A DNA stretch of 64,000 nt from Delphinapterus leucas. Lineage: Eukaryota > Chordata > Mammalia > Artiodactyla > Monodontidae. The position numbers were made by a program, and so were the translations under genes. The stretch lies in assembly GCF_002288925.2 (NCBI RefSeq), contig NW_022098021.1:4537749-4601748 (forward strand), in the 5' to 3' direction. The notes under the pieces were generated by a model. The model was given only the letters and a program-made list of their open reading frames with translations. It had not been told where the DNA came from and did no database searches. This document shows, in pieces, positions 12,557-42,508 of the stretch (positions are counted from its first letter, which is position 1; each line of letters begins with the position of its first letter).

Positions 12557-12696
12557 CTTGGGAATTCCCTGGCAGTCCAGTGGTTACGACTCAGCGCTTT
12601 CACTGCTGGGGACCCGGGTTCGATCCCTGGTCGGGGAACTAAGATCCCACAAGCAGTGGGGCACAGTCAAAAGAAAAAAGTTTTAATTAAATTAAA
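12557..12696 (+). mobile_element. CHR-1-type SINE
   Basis: Shorter, older tRNA-derived form: 'gggaattccctggcagtcca', 'ccgggttcgatccctggtcg', 'ggaactaagatcccacaagc'. Tail A-rich. Probable target-site duplication ttaaacaa at 12549-12556 and 12697-12704. Confidence 0.9.
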
Positions 12697-14330: not shown

Positions 14331-15654
14331 GCTTACTTTTACGAATTTTCAAAAACATTAAAAAAGAAGAAAGAAAGAACCTGAACAACAGAGGTCACAC
14401 TTGTAGAGCAGAGCCCAGGCAGCAGTATCTTACAAGAGCTCCCCTAAGAATGATGCAGAGCGGGCACTGAGAGGTTCCCCAGCAGGAGGGTCACTCGGGG
14501 AATGAGAGTGGAAGCCGTGGACAGACTCAGGAGCGCTGGAGCTCCCAGAGCCGCTCCTCTCTACCCTCTGCTGGCCCAGCCCGGCCTCCCCATGGCTCAG
14601 AGGCTGGGAGCCAGGAGGCTGAGAGCTGGCTGGGCACTGGAGTCACCAGAATTCCAAGTTGGATAGTGGCTTTGGGACCAAAGGTGGTGAAAGCTTCCAT
14701 TCGGACAGAAATCTGGAAATGAGCCACTGCGAGTGGTACCCGGGATGAAGACCAGTGTCACCTCCAGAGGGGTGACACGGTAGCTCAGTATACATTCAGC
14801 CGAGCGCGCTGATGGCTCCAGCTGGCCTGGGACCCATCTGAACACGATGGCCCTCGCCGAGCTCACCCCCAGAGTCTCTGAGCCCCAGAAGCGTGAACTG
14901 ACGCCTCCAGGCCTGGTGGCCCCCTGGGGCCCGAGGTCAGGGTGACATTTCTCTGCAGTGATCACAGTTACCCTGGGCGAGGCCCCCAGGAACACAGAGC
15001 TGCTGGAAGACCCCCAGCCCCCAGGGCTGCCCACCGGCAGAGGCAGCTCAGCACTGCCTGGACGGCCTATAGGACAGCCGATCCAGAGGACAGTCTCCAA
15101 AGAAGTGTCTAAAATCCCGGTGACAGGGCGCCTAGCAAAGGACTGTCCTGAGAGCAGAAGAGCAGCCCGAACCCACCCAAGCGCCCCCGTGGTCCCCGGG
15201 GCTCCCACCATCACCCGGCCTGTCCACAGCCACGGGAGCCAGGGGGGAGGTGACGCTCGTATGCAGAGTCAAAAGACCCACACGTGCGCACACATGCATG
15301 CACACACACACGTCACACACACACACACGCATAGACGCGCCCACACAGACACAGTGCCAGCGGGAATTTATATTACTAAACGATGCAGGGACGTCCCATT
15401 AAACACCTAAGGAGGAAGCGTTTGCAGCTTCTATGAAAATACTCAAAACTAGCTCCGATAAACTATTGTATTTTTCTCTGGGAACAACAGCGATGTCACA
15501 ACTCTACAGAAACACTTCAAACAGAAACCAACGGGAGGCCAGGGGATGCCTGTACAAAACGCTTCTCCCGGGCTCTTGCTAATCTGTACAGAGCAGCAGC
15601 GGAATTACCAGGCCAGGAGAAGAGCACTAATTCGATAAAGTTCCCTGCTTCCAG
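14331..15654. other. Unique sequence
   Basis: No gene supported. The GC-rich stretch 14530-15250 has overlapping open frames on both strands up to 205 codons (minus, 14597-15214) with no domain, typical of chance frames. Confidence 0.45.
15278..15350. repeat. CA-rich microsatellite with ACGC variants
   Basis: Imperfect CACA/CACG array containing 'cacacacacacgtcacacac'. Confidence 0.9.
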
Positions 15655-15935
15655 CCCCGTTAGTTAATTAAATTATCGCTTTACGGTGCCTTAAGAGAGC
15701 TGCAAGGCTAACCCGAGTGTTGCCAGCTTTATGGGGTCTGCGGGCCCTTTACAAGCTTCCTGTGCCCGCAAGTGTCAAATTGGGGCTGTATTGACAGATA
15801 AAAGAAAAATCGAGCTGCTAGGATTGCAGCCTTTCCCTGCGATATCTTTATACTGTGCTATAAAAGCCTATCACACTTAAAGAGTGAAAATTGTTGACAT
15901 CTCTTTGCATTGCTAATCTTTAGGAAACAATGAGT
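15655..15935 (+). promoter_or_regulatory. Paired conserved-looking element, copy A
   Basis: AT-rich noncoding block that is a diverged paralogue of 19040-19325 in the same orientation. Shared landmarks: aattatc at 15671, agtgtcaaatt at 15771, taaaagccta at 15861, gtgaaaatt at 15884 and ggaaacaa at 15923. Spacings of 100, 90, 23 and 39 bases compare with 99, 91, 27 and 40 in copy B. Also shared are ctttacaa.cttcct before the second landmark and a GATA-like aaaa stretch after it. Motifs visible include homeobox-like ttaattaaatta (15663), agataaaa (15797) and octamer-like tttgcat (15904). There is no coding frame. It is either a duplicated enhancer or two exapted copies of an ancient repeat. Confidence 0.65.
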
Positions 15936-16086
15936 GGAATATTATTTGAAATGAATAACTGCTCGCTTTATTGGCGAGTAGTAAAAATCTAATAGTTGGC
16001 AAAACAATGTGGTGTTTACTCTTCAAGATAGGCGGGTTTATTAGCAGCAGCAGAGCAAAAGCGTCACAGCTCAGCCCTCATCTCCT
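15936..16086. other. Unique flank of element A
   Basis: AT-rich, possibly part of the same conserved block. Ends at the target site of the next SINE. Confidence 0.35.
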
Positions 16087-16295
16087 TAGGGTTTTTTTGT
16101 TTTTGTTTTTGTTTTTTTGCGGTACGCGGGCCTCTCACTGTTGTGGCCACTCCGGTTGCGGAGCACAGGCTCAGCAGCCACGGCTCACGGGCCCAGCCGC
16201 TCCGCGGTATGTGGGATCTTCCCGGACTGGGGCACGAACCCGCATCCCCTGCATCGGCAGGCGGACTCTCAACCACTGCGCCACCAGGGAAGCCC
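16087..16295 (-). mobile_element. CHR SINE, short cetacean form
   Basis: Reverse orientation: T-rich tail (16090-16118), 'gcggtacgcgggcctctcac', 'catcggcaggcggactctca' and 'gcgccaccagggaagcccc'. Target site ctccttagggtttt at about 16082 and at 16296-16309. It landed about 150 bp from the recognisable end of paired element A. Confidence 0.93.
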
Positions 16296-16309
16296 CTCCT
16301 TAGGGTTTT

Positions 16310-17082
16310 ACTTGGGTTACAGCATCGGGTGTTTTGTTTGCTGTTATTATGCTTGTTTTTGCTTTTTTTTTTCCCTTTTGCTCTTCTTTCTTTCTCCCGT
16401 CCCCCAATATAAGGTGACACTTTTAAAGATATCATATCAAATGTGACATATATTCAACTGAACTGAAAAACAGCCTTCGAGAGAAAAAAATATTTGTCAG
16501 ACGCTAATTAAAGGTTGTAGTTTCCCAAAGTGAGAACTTTCAGCTCAGGAGGCTGGGAGTTCAGAGGTATGACCAGGGCTGGGAGCAAGTCTGGTGGGTT
16601 TGTGTGTCCAGGCGGCTCACATGCGCGCGCGCACACACACACCCCCTGCAGCAGGCCTGGGTCTGGGCCCTGTGCCGTCTGTCGCCGCGTTTAGTGCCGT
16701 GCTCACATGTCTCCTCCACCCTCTGGGAGCCCAGGAGTGCTTGACACACAGTCACTTAGCAAACACTTACAAAATGACGTGGCAAATAAGTGGACTCCGA
16801 ACCAGAGAAATCATTTTGAGAACAGACTTGCTGTGCGAATGGCACCCACTTCTTTCTTGCGGACGTTTTCCTTGCCGTGTGCTTATGTCACAGCAACATA
16901 CCCAAACGTCCGGAGCGGGCAGAAGGGCCGGCTGCTCCTTCACGGGACCCCGATGGTGCCCTCGTCAACTGCAGTCATTTGTGTACAGAAATAAGCTCTT
17001 ATGTCTTCACCACCTCTCGGGACAGGGTGACAAGTGTGATTCTTTTACACTGAGACCAGGCTGGGCTATCAAGGCCGAGGGC
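16310..17082. other. Unique sequence with an L2-like piece
   Basis: No gene recognised. 16725-16800 ('gagcccaggagtgcttgaca', 'gtcacttagcaaacacttac') looks like a decayed L2 3' end. A short CG/CA array lies at 16624-16645. T- and C-rich runs at 16360-16405. Confidence 0.4.
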
Positions 17083-17205
17083 AGTAGTTCCTGAACTTGA
17101 GTGCCCGCACAGCAGCCTGGGAGGGGCCCCAGGAAGAGCATGTTAACAAGCGCCCCAGGAGATCCCAAGCGCTCAGAATTCCTCTGCCCTGAGGCCACGT
17201 GAGCA
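17083..17205 (+). mobile_element. MER5-type hAT-Charlie MITE
   Basis: Begins 'gcagtagttcctgaacttga' and continues 'gcacagcagcctgggagggg' and 'gttaacaagcgccccaggag', in the order expected for a non-autonomous MER5 element. No terminal inverted repeat is left on the right. Confidence 0.55.
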
Positions 17206-19039
17206 GGCGGGCTTTACAAGTTTGCTGTTAGGCCTCACTGTGGGCTCTGAGCTCCCTGCAGGCAGGCCTGAGGCCCGGCAGCCGGCAGCCGGCAGGACCC
17301 TGCAACCCCTCTGGTGGCCCAGCCCGTCTTGGAATCAGGGACCAAAAATCACATCCGTACTGTACACTGAGGTGGAGCCCAGGTGACAAGGTCCAGCATC
17401 TCTGTTCAAGTTCCCTGCTGCTGAGACTGTGAAACAGACGGGGAACCGGCCCTCTAGTTCAAAAGGTGACAAGGCCCCTGGACCGAGCCCCAGCTGCTGG
17501 ACCTGCCGATCACTCGTGCCAAGGAGAGGCTCCTTATCTCCTGAACTTTTAGCCTGCTAATTCCAACTAAGGTACATATAGCTTAGCTTTAAGCAATAAA
17601 AAGGAGAAAAAAAAAATTGTGTTTATCTGCTGTGGCCAAGCCGGTCTCTCCCAGGTGAGTCTTCTGCAGAACTATTTCCTTGTTCTCTGTGTCCCAGTCT
17701 CTCCGGTCAAGGCCAGCCAAAGATCGAGGCTCACCCAGTGGCCTGAGAACACAGCTCCGTCACCAGGCCAGGCAGAAGGCCCTGAACACAGTTACCCGAT
17801 TCAGGGTCACCGCCAAGGTCGAGATCAAGTGCAGAGAAGACGGTTGGCCGCCAGGCTCTCTGCTGCAACAACAATGAGGTGCTGGTCAACTGGGATTGAA
17901 AAACTACTGCCATTATATAAGGAAATCCCTTTTTAGGCCAGACTGGGCCACTGCGAGGCCAGGGGGACTAACACCTCAGGGAGCCACCACCTGACTCTGG
18001 GTGGTACCTGGAGCCCCGAGGTGGCAGCCAGACCGGAGTCAGGCCAGAGACACAAAGCCCACCCGACAACGGTCCGTGCACTGCGGTGGCAGGTGTGCAA
18101 GTCACTTCTTCCCAGCAGCCCTGGAGAGAAGGGACCAGATGGAGGACGGGCCAGCTTCGACGGACATACGAGCTCCGTGTTTGGGAGCTGTGCCCCTGAC
18201 CAGAGCAGGTCCTGGGCCCACAGCCTCGGCCCAGGCCTTGGCCGAGGCTCAGAACAGCTGGTGGAAGTGAGAAGAGGGTGGGCTGGAAATGGGGGGCCCC
18301 GCTTGTTGTCCCTTAGGATGGGAGCCCCAGAGACACATCCTCCAAGAGAAACGGCCCTGCGGCCCTGCTGCCTCAGCGCCAACCCACTCGGCTCAGCCCC
18401 TGTGCCACCGCAGCCTTGACAAAGGAAGAAAAGACTTCTACTGGCCCTTTCTGTGAAGAGAGCTTCCTGGCTAGGACTGAGCCACCCAGATACAGGCAGT
18501 CCAGGGATCCCCTCTCGGTGTGACACCTGCTAACAGTATGTCTGCCTTTCAGCTGCCTCCACTGGATCGTGGTTGGGCAGTTTTTATCTTCCCCAGAAGC
18601 AGCATTATTTGGCCACATGTGACACCGTCTGTGCAGAAAGCAGAGGCCCCAGAGGAGCTTCTAGAAGAGTGCTGCCTGGAAGAGTACCAGAAGTGGCAGC
18701 CACTGAAGATGCCCAGGGCCTACCCCAAAGAGCCAGAGGGCCAGAAGGGGCGAGGGGCCGGAGGGATGCCCAGGTGTGCGCGGGCTGGCCCCTCGGCACC
18801 AGGCAGCCCCAGCAGGGAGACGCGAGTCACGGCCAGGGCTGCCGTCGAGAGGGGAAGGGAGGGAGAGGCCGTGCAGACTTGGGGGCATATCTCACGGATC
18901 GCAGTGGCTCCCCACTCTGCAGCCAGCAGCATCCACCTCCAGTGCTGATTCTGCCAGAGCATTAATGATGCTGTAAAATAATAAGGCCCCAGACGGCCCG
19001 CACGAGAGCAAGCAGTTGATAAAAGGGAGGTTTACAGCC
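17206..19039. other. GC-rich unique sequence
   Basis: No exon, RNA gene or repeat supported. Open frames up to about 200 codons occur on both strands together (17933-18526 minus, 18520-18965 plus), without domains. The last 80 bases (18960-19039) are AT-rich and may belong to the paired element that follows. Confidence 0.45.
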
Positions 19040-19325
19040 ACATCCATCAATTTAATTATCTTTCGCTAGGCTTAAACTTAGGAGTAATACTAATCTCTAT
19101 TTAGCACGGTTTACAGGATCTGTGGACACTTTACAATCTTCCTCTATTCACAAGTGTCAAATTACGGCACTATTGATAAAACGGCGGAGTAAACAGCTGG
19201 TGAGACAACCCTAGAACCGGCGAATACACTTTTTACTGCACCGTAAAAGCCTATTACTCTCTGATTTCGGGTGAAAATTTGTGGCCAATAATCTGAGTTG
19301 ATAATGTTTCGGAAACAAATGCGCG
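19040..19325 (+). promoter_or_regulatory. Paired conserved-looking element, copy B
   Basis: Diverged paralogue of 15655-15935. Landmarks: aattatc at 19054, agtgtcaaatt at 19153, taaaagccta at 19244, gtgaaaatt at 19271 and ggaaacaa at 19311. The segment from ggatctgtgg (about 19117) to tgataaaa (about 19174) is the best-matching stretch. It includes tttacaa.cttcct and cacaagtgtcaaatt. Differences are spread as substitutions with few gaps, as expected of an old duplication under constraint. No reading frame is shared with copy A. Which factor binds is unknown; the CAAGTG core and TGATAA are only suggestive of NK2 and GATA proteins. Confidence 0.65.
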
Positions 19326-20685
19326 GATCATAAAAGCTGCCTTCTCCCTAACGCCACCCCGCTCCAATCCGAGGCCAGCCCCCTCCTCGGACTTGACCAT
19401 AAAAAGCCGGGGCCACAGGGGCCGAGGTGGAGGCCATCCGGCCATCGGCAGGCACTGCTGCCTCCTTGGCCGAGGGCAGGTCTGGGAGGCCCGTGGCCCA
19501 TGGCCCGTACTGCTCTGCCCACAAGCTCCCCACGCCCGCTTGGGCTCCAGCAAGGAGACGGTCTTCTAGAAGCCCTTGCAGGAACCTGCACTCTGCACTT
19601 TGCAGGGGCGAGAAGGACAGAGCAGCAGGGAGCACCGGCCTTGGACACTGCCTCCTGGATTGTCTCAAGCCGATGACCTAGCCCCACCGGGGGGCTCTCG
19701 GGCCAATATGGTGCCCATGCACCCAACACCCCCAGAAGGATCGCTGCCCGCACCCAGCAGCCTGGTGTCACTCGTTCTCATTCACTTGCTTTGCTGTCAG
19801 GCTGAGGTTTCCCCAGTGCCCTCCGAGTGGCGGTCGGTTTAGGTTTTCTCTGTCCAGAACGTGGCATCACACCCTTTGGTGCTTCCCGGCCTGACTTGCT
19901 GGAAACTAAGGCCACCAGGCAAACACAGCAGTTCTTTCAAGCAGAGGCTCTCTGCGGGACGGATGGCACTCGTCAGAGGCGCTGGCCAGTTCTGGACAGA
20001 AAGCAGGGAAGGCCTGTGCCCACCTCTCTGCCCCTAGAGCCTCCCCAGGGCCGTGCCTGCCTGGAGCACCAGGTGGGCTGTCTCACGGCCGCACCGTGCT
20101 GCGAAGCCACCTGTTTCTCCAGGCGATCTCCACGCCACGCCCCGGGCACGCCCCGACCGCTGGGCCCAGGCTGGAGCTCCGGTCGGGGAAGCCCTGGCTC
20201 CAGACTCTGGACACTGAGTTCCCAGCGTGGAGTTTGTACTCCAGACCCACAACCAGGCCTTGTGGTCCTTGGTTCTGCTTGTCCGCCCGCGTCCTGATCC
20301 AAACAGGGAATGGAGGCTGGGGACGTGAGGACACAGTGAGGGGAGAGGGTGTTGGTCGCCCAGCATGCAGCAACCCCGCCAGCCAGCCTGCCGGTCACCA
20401 CGACCCCTCCCCGACTGCTGTGGGTGCAAAGCACTCCACAAACACAAACCCCAATCCTTTCAAAACAGGAGACCCTACCAACCACAAATTAGATATTATC
20501 CTTGTGAACCACAGACCACCCCTGGTGTGGTGGCCAAAGAAATAAACTCCCGAAACTTCTCTGAGTCGCGATTATTTGACCTGCATAATGGAATCACTTG
20601 CCTTCTCCAAGAGTCTTCATGAAAATCACACAAAACTGTAATTTTTCCGAAAGCTCTTTGTAAACCGTAAAGTGATATAACAATG
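19326..20685. other. GC-rich unique sequence
   Basis: No gene supported. 19970-20500 carries several overlapping frames of 100-170 codons on both strands without recognisable domains. CpG is moderately frequent at 20090-20320. Confidence 0.45.
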
Positions 20686-36458: not shown

Positions 36459-37394
36459 AGGAGGAGTCAAGATGGCGGTGTGGGAAGATGGGGAGTCAGC
36501 ATCTCCCCACAACTAGGGCGCCTGCCAGCTGCTGGTGGGGGATCCTGACACCCAAGGAGATAGGAGGAACCCCCAAGTGAACGGGTAGGACTGGGGGTAC
36601 TGAGGGGAGAGGAGAAATAGAGGCCAGACAGGATCAGCGCCCCTGAGGCCGGGGAGATCAGGAGAGGCAGGCGGGAGGGGCCCTCAGGGAGGAGCAGGAG
36701 AGGATGCATGTGTTAGCCCCACCCACTCGAGCCCAGGAAGCCTGCTGGGCTCCCAGGTGAGGTCCCCTGCCCTCTGAGACCAGGGGTGGGAGCACGCCTG
36801 GGCCCCTTCTGTTCTTTGAGCCTAAGCCCCACCCCCCCACGGCCCCCAGGGCCTTTTCCAGTCCTGTGGGTCCTAAGCATTGGCCCCACCCACCACCCAA
36901 ACTTCACCCTTGCTTAGGCCCCGCCCTCCACAGCCGAGGCCTTTTCCCCTCTTTTTCATTCTTTTCCCTCCTCCTCTTTTTTACTATTGCGGTACTGATG
37001 TACCTTCCAGTTGTTGATTCACCTACATTTTTATTTTTATAGTCCTTCTAACATATCTGTTAGTTTCCTACTCTAATTTTATTTTTTACTTTGTTATTTT
37101 TCTCTTTCTTTCACCGCCCCACACGGCTTGCGGGATCTCGACTCACGAGCCAGGGGTTGGGCCAAAGCTCCTGCAGTGGGAGCTCCAAGTTCAAACCACT
37201 GGACTCACAGAGAACCTCAGACCCCAGGGAATATTCATCAGAGTGAGGTCTCATGGAGTTCCTCACATCAGCACCAAGACCCAGCTCTACCCAACAGCCT
37301 ACAAACTCCAGTGCTGGAAGCCTCAGGCCAAACAACCAGTAAGACAGGAACACAATCCCACTCATTAAAAAAAAAAAAGAGACGGCAAAAAAAT
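36459..37394 (+). promoter_or_regulatory. L1 5' UTR with internal promoter
   Basis: Starts at the insertion point with 'agatggcggtg', which includes the YY1-type core CAAGATGGC conserved at the start of many mammalian L1s. A GC-rich stretch follows to about 36920, then a T-rich one (36950-37110), then sequence leading to ORF1. Promoter function is family knowledge, and activity of this copy is unknown. Confidence 0.7.
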
Positions 37395-38331
37395 ATGTCA
37401 CAGGTGAAGGAGCAAGGTAAAAACCTACAAGACCAAATAAATGAAGAGGAAATAGGCAATCTACCTGAAAAAGAATTCAGAGCAATGATAGTAAAGATGA
37501 CCCAGAATCTCAGAAGTAGAATGGAGGCACGGATTGAGAAAATACAAGAAATGTTTAACAAAGATCTAGAAAAACTAAAGAACAAACAAACAGAGATGAA
37601 TAACACAATAACTAAAATGAAAAATACACTAGAAGGAATAGCAGAACAACTGAGGCAGAAGAAGGAATAAGTGAGTGGGAAGACAAAATAGTGGAAATAA
37701 CTGCTGAGGAGCAGAATAAAGAGAAAAGAATGAAAAGAATTGAAGACAATCTCAGAGACCTCTGGGACAACACTAAACGCACCAACATTTGAATTAGAGG
37801 GGTCCCAGAAGAAGCAGAGAAAAAGAAAGGGTCTGAGAAAATATCTAAAGTGATTATAGTCCAAAACTTCCCTAACATGGGAAAGGAAATAGTCACCCAA
37901 GTCCAGGAAGCACAGAGAGTCTCATTAAGGATAAACCCTAGGAAAAACACACCAAGACACATACTAATCAAAATAACAAAAATTAAATTCAAAGAAAAAA
38001 TATTAAAAGCAGCAAGGGAAAAACAAAAAATAACATGCAAAGGAATCCCCATAAGGTTATCAGCTGATTTTTCAGCAGAAATTCTACAGGCCAGAGGGAA
38101 TGGCAGGATACACTTAAAGCAAGGAAAGAGAAAAACCGACAACCAAGATTGCTCTACCCAGCAAGGATCTCATTCACATTCAACAGAGAAATCAAAAGCT
38201 TTTCAGACAAGCAAAAGCTAACAGAATTCAGCACCACCAAACCAGCTTTACAACAAATGCTAAAGAAACTTCTCCAGGCAGGAAACACAAGAGAAGAAAA
38301 AGACCCAAAAATACAAACCGAAAACAATTAA
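37395..38331 (+). pseudogene. L1 ORF1 (ORF1p), broken
   Basis: ORF1p is the L1 RNA-binding chaperone that trimerises through a coiled coil and coats L1 RNA. I start it at ATG 37395 because the residues from there (MSQVKEQGK) look like the family N-terminus. The frame also runs open upstream from 37128. A coiled-coil-rich part is readable to 37670, the RNA-recognition domain (VQNFPNMGKE, NPRKNTPRH, LKAAREKQK) at about 37850-38095, and the C-terminal domain (LYPARISF, FSDKQKL, LQQMLK) at 38149-38331. Lesions: a frameshift near 37668, a TGA at 37790-37792 in the second frame, which may come from CpG decay of CGA, and a second frameshift between about 38098 and 38148. No full protein can be made. 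Confidence 0.9.
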
Positions 38332-38335
38332 GAAA

Positions 38336-41300
38336 ATGGTAATAGGAAAATACATATCAATAATAACCTCGAATGTAAGTGCATTAAATGCCCCAACCAA
38401 AAGACACAGACTGCCTGAATGGATACAAAAACAAGACCCATATATATGCTGTCTACAAGAGACTCACTTCAGACCTAGGGACACATACAGACTGAAAGTG
38501 AAGGGATGGAAAAAGATGTTCCACGCACATGGAAATCAAAAGAAAGCTGGAGTAGCAATACTCGTATCAGATAAAATAGACTTTAAAATACTGTTACAAG
38601 AGATAAGGAGGGACACTACATAATGATCAAAGGATCAATCCAAGAAGAAGATATAACAATTATAAATGTTTATGCACCCAACATAGGAGCACCTCAATAC
38701 ATAAGGCAAATGCTAACAACCATGAAAGGAGAAATCAACAGTAACACAATAATAGTAGGGTCCTTTAACACCCCACTTACACCAGTGGACAGATCATCCA
38801 AATGGAAAATAAATAAGGAAATACAAGCTTTAAATGACACAATAGACCAGATAGATTTAATTGATATTTATAGAACATTCCACCCAAAAGTGGCAGAATA
38901 TACTTTCTTCTCAAGTGCACATGGAATGTTCTCCAGGATAGATCACATCTTGGGTCACAAATCAAGCCTCAGAAAATTTAAGAAAGTTGAAATCTTACCA
39001 AGCATCTTGTCTGACCACAATGCTATGAGACTGGAAATCAATTACAGGAAAAAAAGTGTAAGAAACACAAATACACAGAAGCTAAACAGTGCGCTACTAA
39101 ATAACCAAGAGATCACTGAAGAAATCAAAGAAGAAATTTAAAAATACATAGAAACAAATGACAATGAAAACACGACGACCCAAAACCTATGGGATGCAGC
39201 AAAAGCAGTTCTAAGAGGGAAGTTTATAGCAATTCAATCTCACCTCAAGAAACAAGAAAAATCTCAAGTAAACAATCTAACCCTACAGACTTAAAACAAC
39301 TAGAGAAAGAACAAAGAAAACCCAAAGTCAGTAGAAGGAAAGAAATCATAAAGATCAGAGCAGAAATAAGTGAAATAGAAACGAAGAAAACAATAGCAAA
39401 GATCAATGAAACTAAAAGCTGGTTCTTTGAGAAGATAAACAAAACTGGTAAACCCTTAGCCAGACTCATCAAGAAAAAAAGGGAGAGGATGCAAATCAAT
39501 AAAATTAGAAACAAAAAAGGAGAAATCACAACTGACACCACAGAAGTACAAAGGATTATAAGAGACTACTACAAACAACTATATGCCAATTAAACGGACA
39601 ACCATGAAGCAATCGACAAATTCTTGGAAGGTACAATTTTCCAAGACTGAACCAGGAAGAATTAGAAAATATAAACAGACCTATCAGAAGTAATGAAATT
39701 GAAACCATAATTAAAAATCTTCCAACAAACAAAAGTCCAGGACCAGATGGCTTCACAGGCAAATTCAATCAAACATTTAGGGAAGAGCTAACGCCTATCC
39801 TTCTCAAACTCTTCCAAAAAATTACAGAGGGAGAAACACTCCCAAATTCATTCTACAAAGCCACCATCACCCTGAAACCAAAACCAGAAAAAGATATCAC
39901 AAAAAAAGAAAACTATAGACCAATATCACTGATGAACATAGATGCAAAAATCCTGAATAAAATACCAGCAAACAGATTTCAACAGCACATTAAAAGGATC
40001 ATACACCATGATCATGTGGGATTTATCCCAGGGATGCAAGGACTCTTCAATATATGCAAGTCAATTAGTGTGCTACACCACATTAACAAATTAAGAAATA
40101 ATAACCATATGATCATCTCAATAGATGCAGAAAAAGCTTTTGACAAAATTCAACACCCATTTATGATAAAAACTCTCCAGAAAATGGGCATAGAGGGAAC
40201 CTACCTCAACGTAATAAAGGCCATATATGACAAACCCACAGCAAGCATTATACTTAATGGTGGAAAACTGAAAGCATTTCCACTAAGATCAGGAAAAGAC
40301 AAGGATGTTCACTCTCACCACTCTTATTCAACATAGTTTTGGAAGTCCTAGCCACAGCAATCAGAGAAGAAAAAGAAAGAAAAGGAATACAAATTGGAAA
40401 AGAAGAAGTAAAACTGTCACTGTTTGCAGATGACATGATACTATACATAGAAGATCCTAAAGATGTCACCAGAAAACTACTAGAACTAATCAATGAATTT
40501 GGTTAAGGTTGCAGAATACAAAAGTAATGCACAGAAATCTCTGGCATTCCTATACACTAATGATGAAAAATCTGAAAGTGAAATCAAGAAAACACTCCCA
40601 TTTACCACTGCAACAAAAAGAATAAAATATCTAGGAATAAACCTACCTAAGGAGACAAAAGACCTGTATGCAGAAAACTATAAGTCACTGATGAAAGAAA
40701 TTAAAGATGATACAAAGAGATGGAGAGATATACCATGTCCTTGGATTGGAAGAATCAACATTGTGAAAATGACTATACTACCCAAAGCAATCTACAGATT
40801 CAATGCAATCCCTATCAAACTACCAATGGCATTCTTCACAGAATTAGAGCAAAAAACTTTACAATTCATATGGAAACACAAAAGACCCCGAATAGCCAAA
40901 GCAGTCTTGAGAAAGGAAAACAGAGTTGGAGGAATCAGGCTCCCCGACTTCAAACTATACTACAAAGCTACAGTAATCAAGACAGTATGGTACTGGCACA
41001 AAAACAGAAATATAGCTCAATGGTACAGGATAGAATGCCCAGAGATAAACCCATGCACATATGGGCACCTAATTTATGACAAAGGAGGGAAGAGCATACA
41101 ATGGAGAAAAGACAGCTTCTTCAATAAGTGGTGCTGGGAAAACTGGACAGCTACGTGTAAAAGAACAAAATTAGAACACTCCCTAATACCATACACAAAA
41201 ATAAACTCCAAATGGATTAAAGACTTAAATGTAAGACCAGACACTATAAAACCCTTAGAGGAAAACATAGGAAAAACACTCTTTGACATAAACCACAGCA

Positions 41301-42149
41301 AGATCTTTTGGGATCCACTTCCTAGACTAATGGAAATAAAAACAAAAATAAACACATGGCACTTAATTAAATTTAAAAGCTTTGCACAGCAAAGGAAACC
41401 ATAAACAAGACAAAAAGACAACCCTCAGAATGGGAGAAAATATTTGCAAATGAAGCAACTGACAAAGGATTAATCTCCAAAATATACAAACAGCTCATGG
41501 ATCTCAATATCAAAAAAAACAAACAATCCAGTTAAAAAATGGGTGGAAGACCTAAATAGATATTTCACCAAGGAAGACATATAGATGGCCAAGAGGCACA
41601 TGAAAAGATGCTCAACATCACTAATTATAAGAGCAATGCAAATCAAAACTGCAATGAGGTACCACCTCACGCTGGTCAGAATGGCCATCATCAAAAAAAC
41701 CTACAAACAATAAATGCTGGAGAGGGTGTGAAGAAAAGGGAACCCTCCTGCACTGTTAGTGGGAACGTAAGTTGATACAACCACTTCAGAAAACAGTATG
41801 GAGGTTCCTTAAAAAATTAAAAATCGAACTACCATACGACCCAGCAATCCCACTACTGGGCATATACCCTGAGAAAACCATAATTCAAAAAGAGTCATGT
41901 ACCAAAACGTTCATTCTAGCTCTATTTACAATAGCCAGGACATGGAAGCAACCTAAGTGTCCATCAACAGATGAATGGATAAAGAAGATGTGGCACATAT
42001 ATACAATAGAATATTTCTCAACCATAAAAAGAAACAAAATTGAGTTATTTGTAGTGAGGTGGATGGACCTAGAGTCTGTCATACAGAGTGAAGTAAGTCA
42101 GAAAGAGAAAAACAAATACCATATGCTAACACATATATATGGAATCTAA
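38336..42149 (+). pseudogene. L1 ORF2 (endonuclease-reverse transcriptase), broken
   Basis: ORF2p nicks DNA at AT-rich sites and copies L1 RNA there. Domains in order: endonuclease 38336 to about 39050 (NVSALNAPTKRHRL, QETHFRP, DHILGHKS, SDHNAM); linker to about 39600; reverse transcriptase about 39640-40500 with [18 protein letters not shown], and the catalytic FADD at 40423-40434; C-terminal region to a cysteine-rich CWRGC...LHC segment (about 41713-41756) and the last frame 41772-42149. Lesions: frameshift with stop near 38620, TAA at 39139, a frame change near 39290, stop and shift near 39590, shift near 40305, shift near 40500, another after 41390, and TAG at 41757-41759. The FADD motif and the SDH motif survive as sequence, but the protein does not. 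Confidence 0.92.
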
Positions 42150-42508
42150 AAAAAAAAAAAATCGTTCTGAAGAACCTAGGGGCAGGACAGGAATAAAGAC
42201 GCAGACGTAGAGAATGGACTTGAGGACACGGGGAGGGGGAAGGGTAAGCTGGGACAAAGTGAGAGAGTGGCACGGACATATATACACTGCCAAACGTAAA
42301 ATAGATAGCTAGTGGGAAGCAGCCGCATAGCACAGGGAGATTCTAGAGGGGTGGGATAGGGAGGGTGGGAGGGAGACGCAAGAGGGAAGAGATAAGGGGA
42401 TATATGTAAATGTATAGCTGATTCACTTTGTTATAAAGCAGAAACTAACACAGTATTGTGAAGCAATTATACTCCAATAAAGATCTATTTAAAAATAAAT
42501 AAACAAAC
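42150..42508 (+). other. L1 3' UTR and polyadenylation signal
   Basis: A-rich start, 'ggacttgaggacacggggag', 'ggtgggatagggagggtggg' G-rich tract (about 42350-42375), 'ctgattcactttgttataaa', then 'actccaataaagatctattt' with the signal, and a degraded A tail to 42508. Confidence 0.9.

Follow-up and report, generated by a model that had tools for sequence, protein, structure and literature searches.

The interval between GPR12 and USP12 in Delphinapterus leucas (genome 2.35 Gb) contains two similar stretches of DNA, henceforth referred to as 'A' and 'B', and this raises the question of whether they are copies of one element and, if so, what kind of element would be found twice at a single locus. 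The DNA analysed (the 'window') is a stretch of 64,000 nucleotides at positions 4537749-4601748 of contig NW_022098021.1, in which an earlier note, made from the letters alone, had described A and B as collinear paralogous blocks. This description was borne out when the blocks were aligned locally: the score was 141, whereas 2000 dinucleotide-preserving shuffles, in which both blocks were shuffled, gave a mean of 22.7 (sd 3.3) and a maximum of 38. The alignment could be extended over the positions given in Table 1, where 217 of the 316 aligned bases agree and 13 gaps are opened, so that the homology is present as noted and its extent is slightly longer than had been thought. A and B lie in the same orientation, are each about 330 bp long and start 3384 bases apart. 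With blastn settings like those of PMC1896008 (word 8, mismatch -1; gap costs and reward chosen here), which place fewer gaps, the two are 61% identical over 288 columns with 4 gaps, at an E-value of 1.0e-10 scaled to the 2.35-Gb genome.

We also searched 29 records (328.5 kb) by nhmmer with either block as the sole query. A alone found B at 18996-19323 (E 3.1e-19), a search that tests homology without presupposing the pair, and B alone found A at 15612-15931 (E 2.1e-20). When the window was scanned in segments of 286 bases, the best score outside A and B was 38, which is not above the shuffle maximum. The five short landmarks on which the pair had been recognised by eye were recovered exactly as given, in order, orientation and spacing (100/99, 90/91, 23/27 and 39/40 bases in A/B). 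Three of them, AGTGTCAAATT, TAAAAGCCTA and GTGAAAATT, are confined to A and B when both strands of the window are considered; AATTATC occurs three times on the plus strand and once on the minus strand, and GGAAACAA seven times and twice, respectively. Overall, the shuffle scores and the nhmmer E-values rule out chance similarity, and it is almost certain that A and B go back to one noncoding element that was copied long ago.

Table 1. Coordinates of the A/B pair, its shared words and the neighbouring genes (window positions, except where a contig position is stated).
Feature	Position	Strand	Remarks
Element A	15611..15938	+	aligned extent with B; GC 44%, 9 CpG, CpG o/e 0.56
Element B	18995..19327	+	aligned extent with A; GC 41%, 14 CpG, CpG o/e 0.98
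Landmark AATTATC	15671 / 19054		in A / B
Landmark AGTGTCAAATT	15771 / 19153		in A / B
Landmark TAAAAGCCTA	15861 / 19244		in A / B
Landmark GTGAAAATT	15884 / 19271		in A / B
Landmark GGAAACAA	15923 / 19311		in A / B
Core 1 of A, CTTTACAA...AAGTGTCAAATT	15747..15781	+	35-place pattern, at most 3 mismatches
Core 1 of B	19129..19163	+	35-place pattern, at most 3 mismatches
Core 2 of A, TAAAAGCCTA	15861..15870	+	pattern with AAGTGTCAAATT 65-95 bases earlier
Core 2 of B	19244..19253	+	pattern with AAGTGTCAAATT 65-95 bases earlier
Shared 3' block GGAAACAA of A	15923..15930	+	landmark match
Shared 3' block GGAAACAA of B	19311..19318	+	landmark match
GPR12	contig 4432189-4433190	minus	96% identity to a GPR12 sequence
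USP12	matched exons, contig 4640659-4670449	minus	exon matches

The element appears to be noncoding, as the earlier note had it: judged by eye, A and B have no open frame of at least 35 aa in common, and on this ground we rejected a protein-coding remnant. Since A and B are evenly built and face the same way, they could in principle be repeated exons of a noncoding transcript, and we considered whether a long noncoding RNA, represented by exons or by conserved segments, or some other structured RNA had been duplicated locally. No Rfam match over threshold was obtained in the A/B region; the sole such match in the window is a tRNA-Glu(TTC)-like gene on the plus strand at 12566-12639 (Rfam tRNA, 41.1 bits), which ARAGORN also reports. 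A permissive Rfam search of the region returned three weak matches, all well below their cut-offs, of which one (S4-Clostridia leader, 19.9 of 37.5 bits) lies inside A and none in B. The two blocks fold no better than their shuffles (z -1.08 and -0.65). With no Rfam match over threshold and no unusually stable fold, a structured RNA was rejected, and we regard the RNA reading as a whole as very improbable. Known transcription-factor words were counted in A and B without a null model, and nothing was therefore built on these counts.

The earlier note had allowed for either a tandem duplication or an old repeat family, and had held that many dispersed copies would speak against its view of the pair. 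Both patterns with which we searched the whole genome gave A and B only: AAGTGTCAAATT followed after 65-95 bases by TAAAAGCCTA occurs in two places in the 2.35 Gb (reversed control, 0), and the 35-place pattern of core 1 matches the same two places with up to three mismatches allowed. Core 2 entered these searches jointly with core 1, and copies that have diverged in the cores would escape both patterns. In the 29 records, nhmmer gave no third copy (next best E 4 with A and 9.9 with B) and a two-sequence A/B profile gave nothing beyond the pair better than E 2.6; an A/B model run on 25 records (288.5 kb) found A and B only, and nothing in the 40 kb to the left. A whole-genome DNA search with A or B returned each query alone and missed the other, and is thus silent on how many copies exist. 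Bacterial genome contigs and viral contigs were scanned with exact patterns for stray vertebrate DNA, with 0 matches in either. A dispersed high-copy repeat was rejected on the two whole-genome patterns and, since only two copies were found, of the two origins entertained at the outset local duplication is favoured and a repeat family disfavoured.

The same evidence bears on the possibility that A and B stem from an old transposable element present in few copies, comparable to Eulor, UCON or MER121, which by chance inserted twice 3.4 kb apart, both insertions possibly being co-opted later. Ancient low-frequency families do exist (PMC5753468), copies diverged in their cores would have slipped past both genome-wide patterns, and a compact homology of about 330 bp with unalignable flanks is the outcome expected of two insertions. 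Against this stand the lack of a third copy by profile (328.5 kb) or by the two genome patterns, one of which tolerated 3 mismatches, and the shared orientation and closeness of A and B, which local duplication explains better. The ends of the blocks speak to both sides: inverted repeats linking one end to the other are absent from both A and B, and short imperfect direct repeats, which can be chance, lie near the ends of both (15576/15910, 92% of 13 bases; 19012/19323, 79% of 14 bases). In the case of A, the 13-base near-repeat has one member just outside the block (15576-15588) and the other just inside it (15910-15922). Taken together, we consider a pair of transposon insertions unlikely.

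How far the homology reaches was determined by comparing the flanks of A and B in matching position. Four partly nested comparisons, with 200 shuffles each, gave scores of 18, 38, 36 and 22 against shuffle maxima of 27, 44, 62 and 34, respectively. The second of these (15939-16900 versus 19328-20300; shuffle mean 27.9, sd 3.7, maximum 44) lies 2.7 sd above its mean, and weak similarity of the flanks is therefore still conceivable. A larger tandem unit was rejected, since none of the four scores, including the one at 2.7 sd, went beyond its shuffle maximum. A homology that ends at the edges of A and B implies either that the duplicated unit was just the element, or that the flanks decayed while the elements did not. 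The surrounding DNA has features of its own. The stretch directly 3' of A (15939-16090) has 40% GC and cannot be aligned with the sequence 3' of B; this AT-rich stretch possibly belongs to a longer element. Between A and B, at about 16094-16297, is a SINE that we take by eye to be of the cetacean CHR type, and further along the window (about 37100-42150, plus strand) are long broken reverse-transcriptase-like frames, presumably an old LINE-1 copy.

Whether A and B have been held by selection is a separate question from whether they are homologous. The earlier note had argued that divergence with preserved spacing suggests constraint. We therefore compared A/B with other pairs of similar divergence, taken from a self-comparison of 25 records, the window among them, that yielded 34 pairs at 58-66% identity over 200-420 columns, A/B included; the other 33, which are not independent and were not individually identified, were assumed to be mostly old repeats. 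The A/B gap rate is 1.39 per 100 columns, and 12 of the 33 other pairs have a lower one; the net length difference is 5, and in 23 of the 33 it is 5 or less. Nor do the runs of identity in A/B exceed those obtained by permuting the columns (p 0.14; the longest is 13 bases, p 0.25). With gap rate and length difference ordinary and identity not significantly clustered, the argument for constraint from spacing fails.

These three observations fit neutral decay and are thus what would be expected if A and B were a functionless local duplication, both copies of which are decaying but are young enough to be aligned. Other features agree less well with such a duplicate. As the flanks do not align beyond shuffles, its bounds would need to have fallen exactly at the element. 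The transition/transversion ratio of A/B is also low: at 0.72 it is the fourth lowest of the 34 pairs (38 transitions and 61 transversions in an alternative alignment), and the pooled ratio of 47 pairs at 60-66% identity, A/B included, is 1.19. This low ratio suggests that variable sites are saturated and hence that the pair is old, some positions having been held; as the ratio is lower still in three other pairs, it is not diagnostic by itself. That B is rich in CpG although its DNA is AT-rich is a further point against neutrality. Of 3989 overlapping AT-rich windows, 55 (including one on B) have an observed/expected ratio as high as that of B, whereas that of A is ordinary, 14% of AT-rich windows reaching 0.56. 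B forms an AT-rich island (41% GC between 62% and 65%), and A, which lies within a wider AT-rich stretch (48% GC before, 40% after), does not. A stretch overlapping B (19042-19374; 15 CpG, o/e 1.05) is AT-rich and yet CpG-rich, which is unusual outside a CpG island. We judge a functionless duplicate to be rather improbable; the substitution ratio, the homology bounded at the edges and the retention of CpG in B would together favour an old, partly constrained pair.

The A/B pair is at contig positions 4553359-4557075, within the 207-kb interval between GPR12 and USP12, and the order along the contig is GPR12, the A/B pair, USP12, RPL21, GSX1, PDX1 and CDX2, which agrees with human 13q12. The exons of RPL21 lie on this same contig beyond USP12, and the homeobox exons are those whose translations we take to be GSX1, PDX1 and CDX2. 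A and B lie 120 kb upstream of the start codon of GPR12, 84 kb beyond the last matched USP12 exon and 0.63 Mb from the ParaHox genes. None of the titles among the matches listed for USP12, GPR12, WASF3 or GSX1 concerned the GPR12-USP12 gap, and none among the matches listed on locally duplicated conserved elements concerned the A/B locus.

The reading that we favour, and which we place just on the probable side of even, is that the GPR12-USP12 gap once contained a single noncoding, enhancer-like element of some 330 bp, which was copied locally at an early date; in short, the pair may be a duplicated gene switch. According to this reading, both copies would have been retained while the surrounding DNA decayed, which agrees with flanks that cannot be aligned. 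Each copy would be bound by transcription factors and serve as a distal cis-acting enhancer, with GPR12, the start of which faces the interval, as the most likely target, USP12 as a less likely one and the ParaHox genes at 0.63 Mb as the least likely. Together, A and B would either add up in effect or divide the expression domains between them. Only tentatively, and with clearly less confidence, would we go further and propose that a deeply conserved enhancer was duplicated beside itself before placental mammals and that both copies have since been under selection.

How does such a pair compare with known systems? Regulatory modules have reportedly been formed by local duplication in a fly study, and a paper on ParaHox genes in the coelacanth is said to contain the term conserved non-coding. 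Closest to A/B are vertebrate duplicated conserved noncoding elements (dCNEs), of which 124 families are cited in PMC1896008, and the earlier note's expression 'undescribed system' is accordingly too strong. By the definition used there, a dCNE occurs in the genome at least twice when sought by sensitive BLAST (word 8, mismatch -1, E <= 1e-4); the dCNEs described have paralogous developmental genes in their vicinity and are attributed to whole-genome duplication (PMC1896008). A and B resemble dCNEs in being noncoding and in having more than one copy, their E-value at genome scale being 1.0e-10; they differ in that they lie 3.4 kb apart at one GPR12-USP12 locus instead of beside paralogous genes. 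As the copy number agrees with the definition and the location does not, we do not file A/B as a dCNE; the pair would be a local variant. USP12 does have a paralogue, USP46 (PMC5577775). Neither whole-genome core pattern matches in the gap beside a second set of USP12-like exons, on another contig, which we take to be USP46. Other contigs also carry two GPR12-like loci.

Eulor, UCON and MER121 elements are old, short and partly retained as conserved noncoding elements (PMC5753468, PMC3826495). These are repeat families, whereas only two neighbouring copies of A/B were found; two patterns, which would miss core-diverged copies, gave no further, dispersed ones, and a repeat of the Eulor/UCON type is an unlikely reading of A/B in view of the copy count. 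Tandem duplication of an enhancer as such is known from human SOX9, in disease (PMC13333887). The likeness is that a regulatory element, and not the gene with it, has been copied next to the original, and the difference is that the SOX9 duplications cause human disease, whereas the A/B pair looks old and is a candidate enhancer pair. Finally, a review on extreme conservation of noncoding DNA (PMC3826495) describes such elements as generally unrelated in sequence except via whole-genome duplication; it has some of them arise from repeats and concludes that duplicated ones are selected against or lost. A pair retained side by side, if A/B proves to be one, would allow a direct test of whether dosage, redundancy or divided expression domains preserve both copies, and would offer a starting point for asking what is regulated from the GPR12-USP12 gap.
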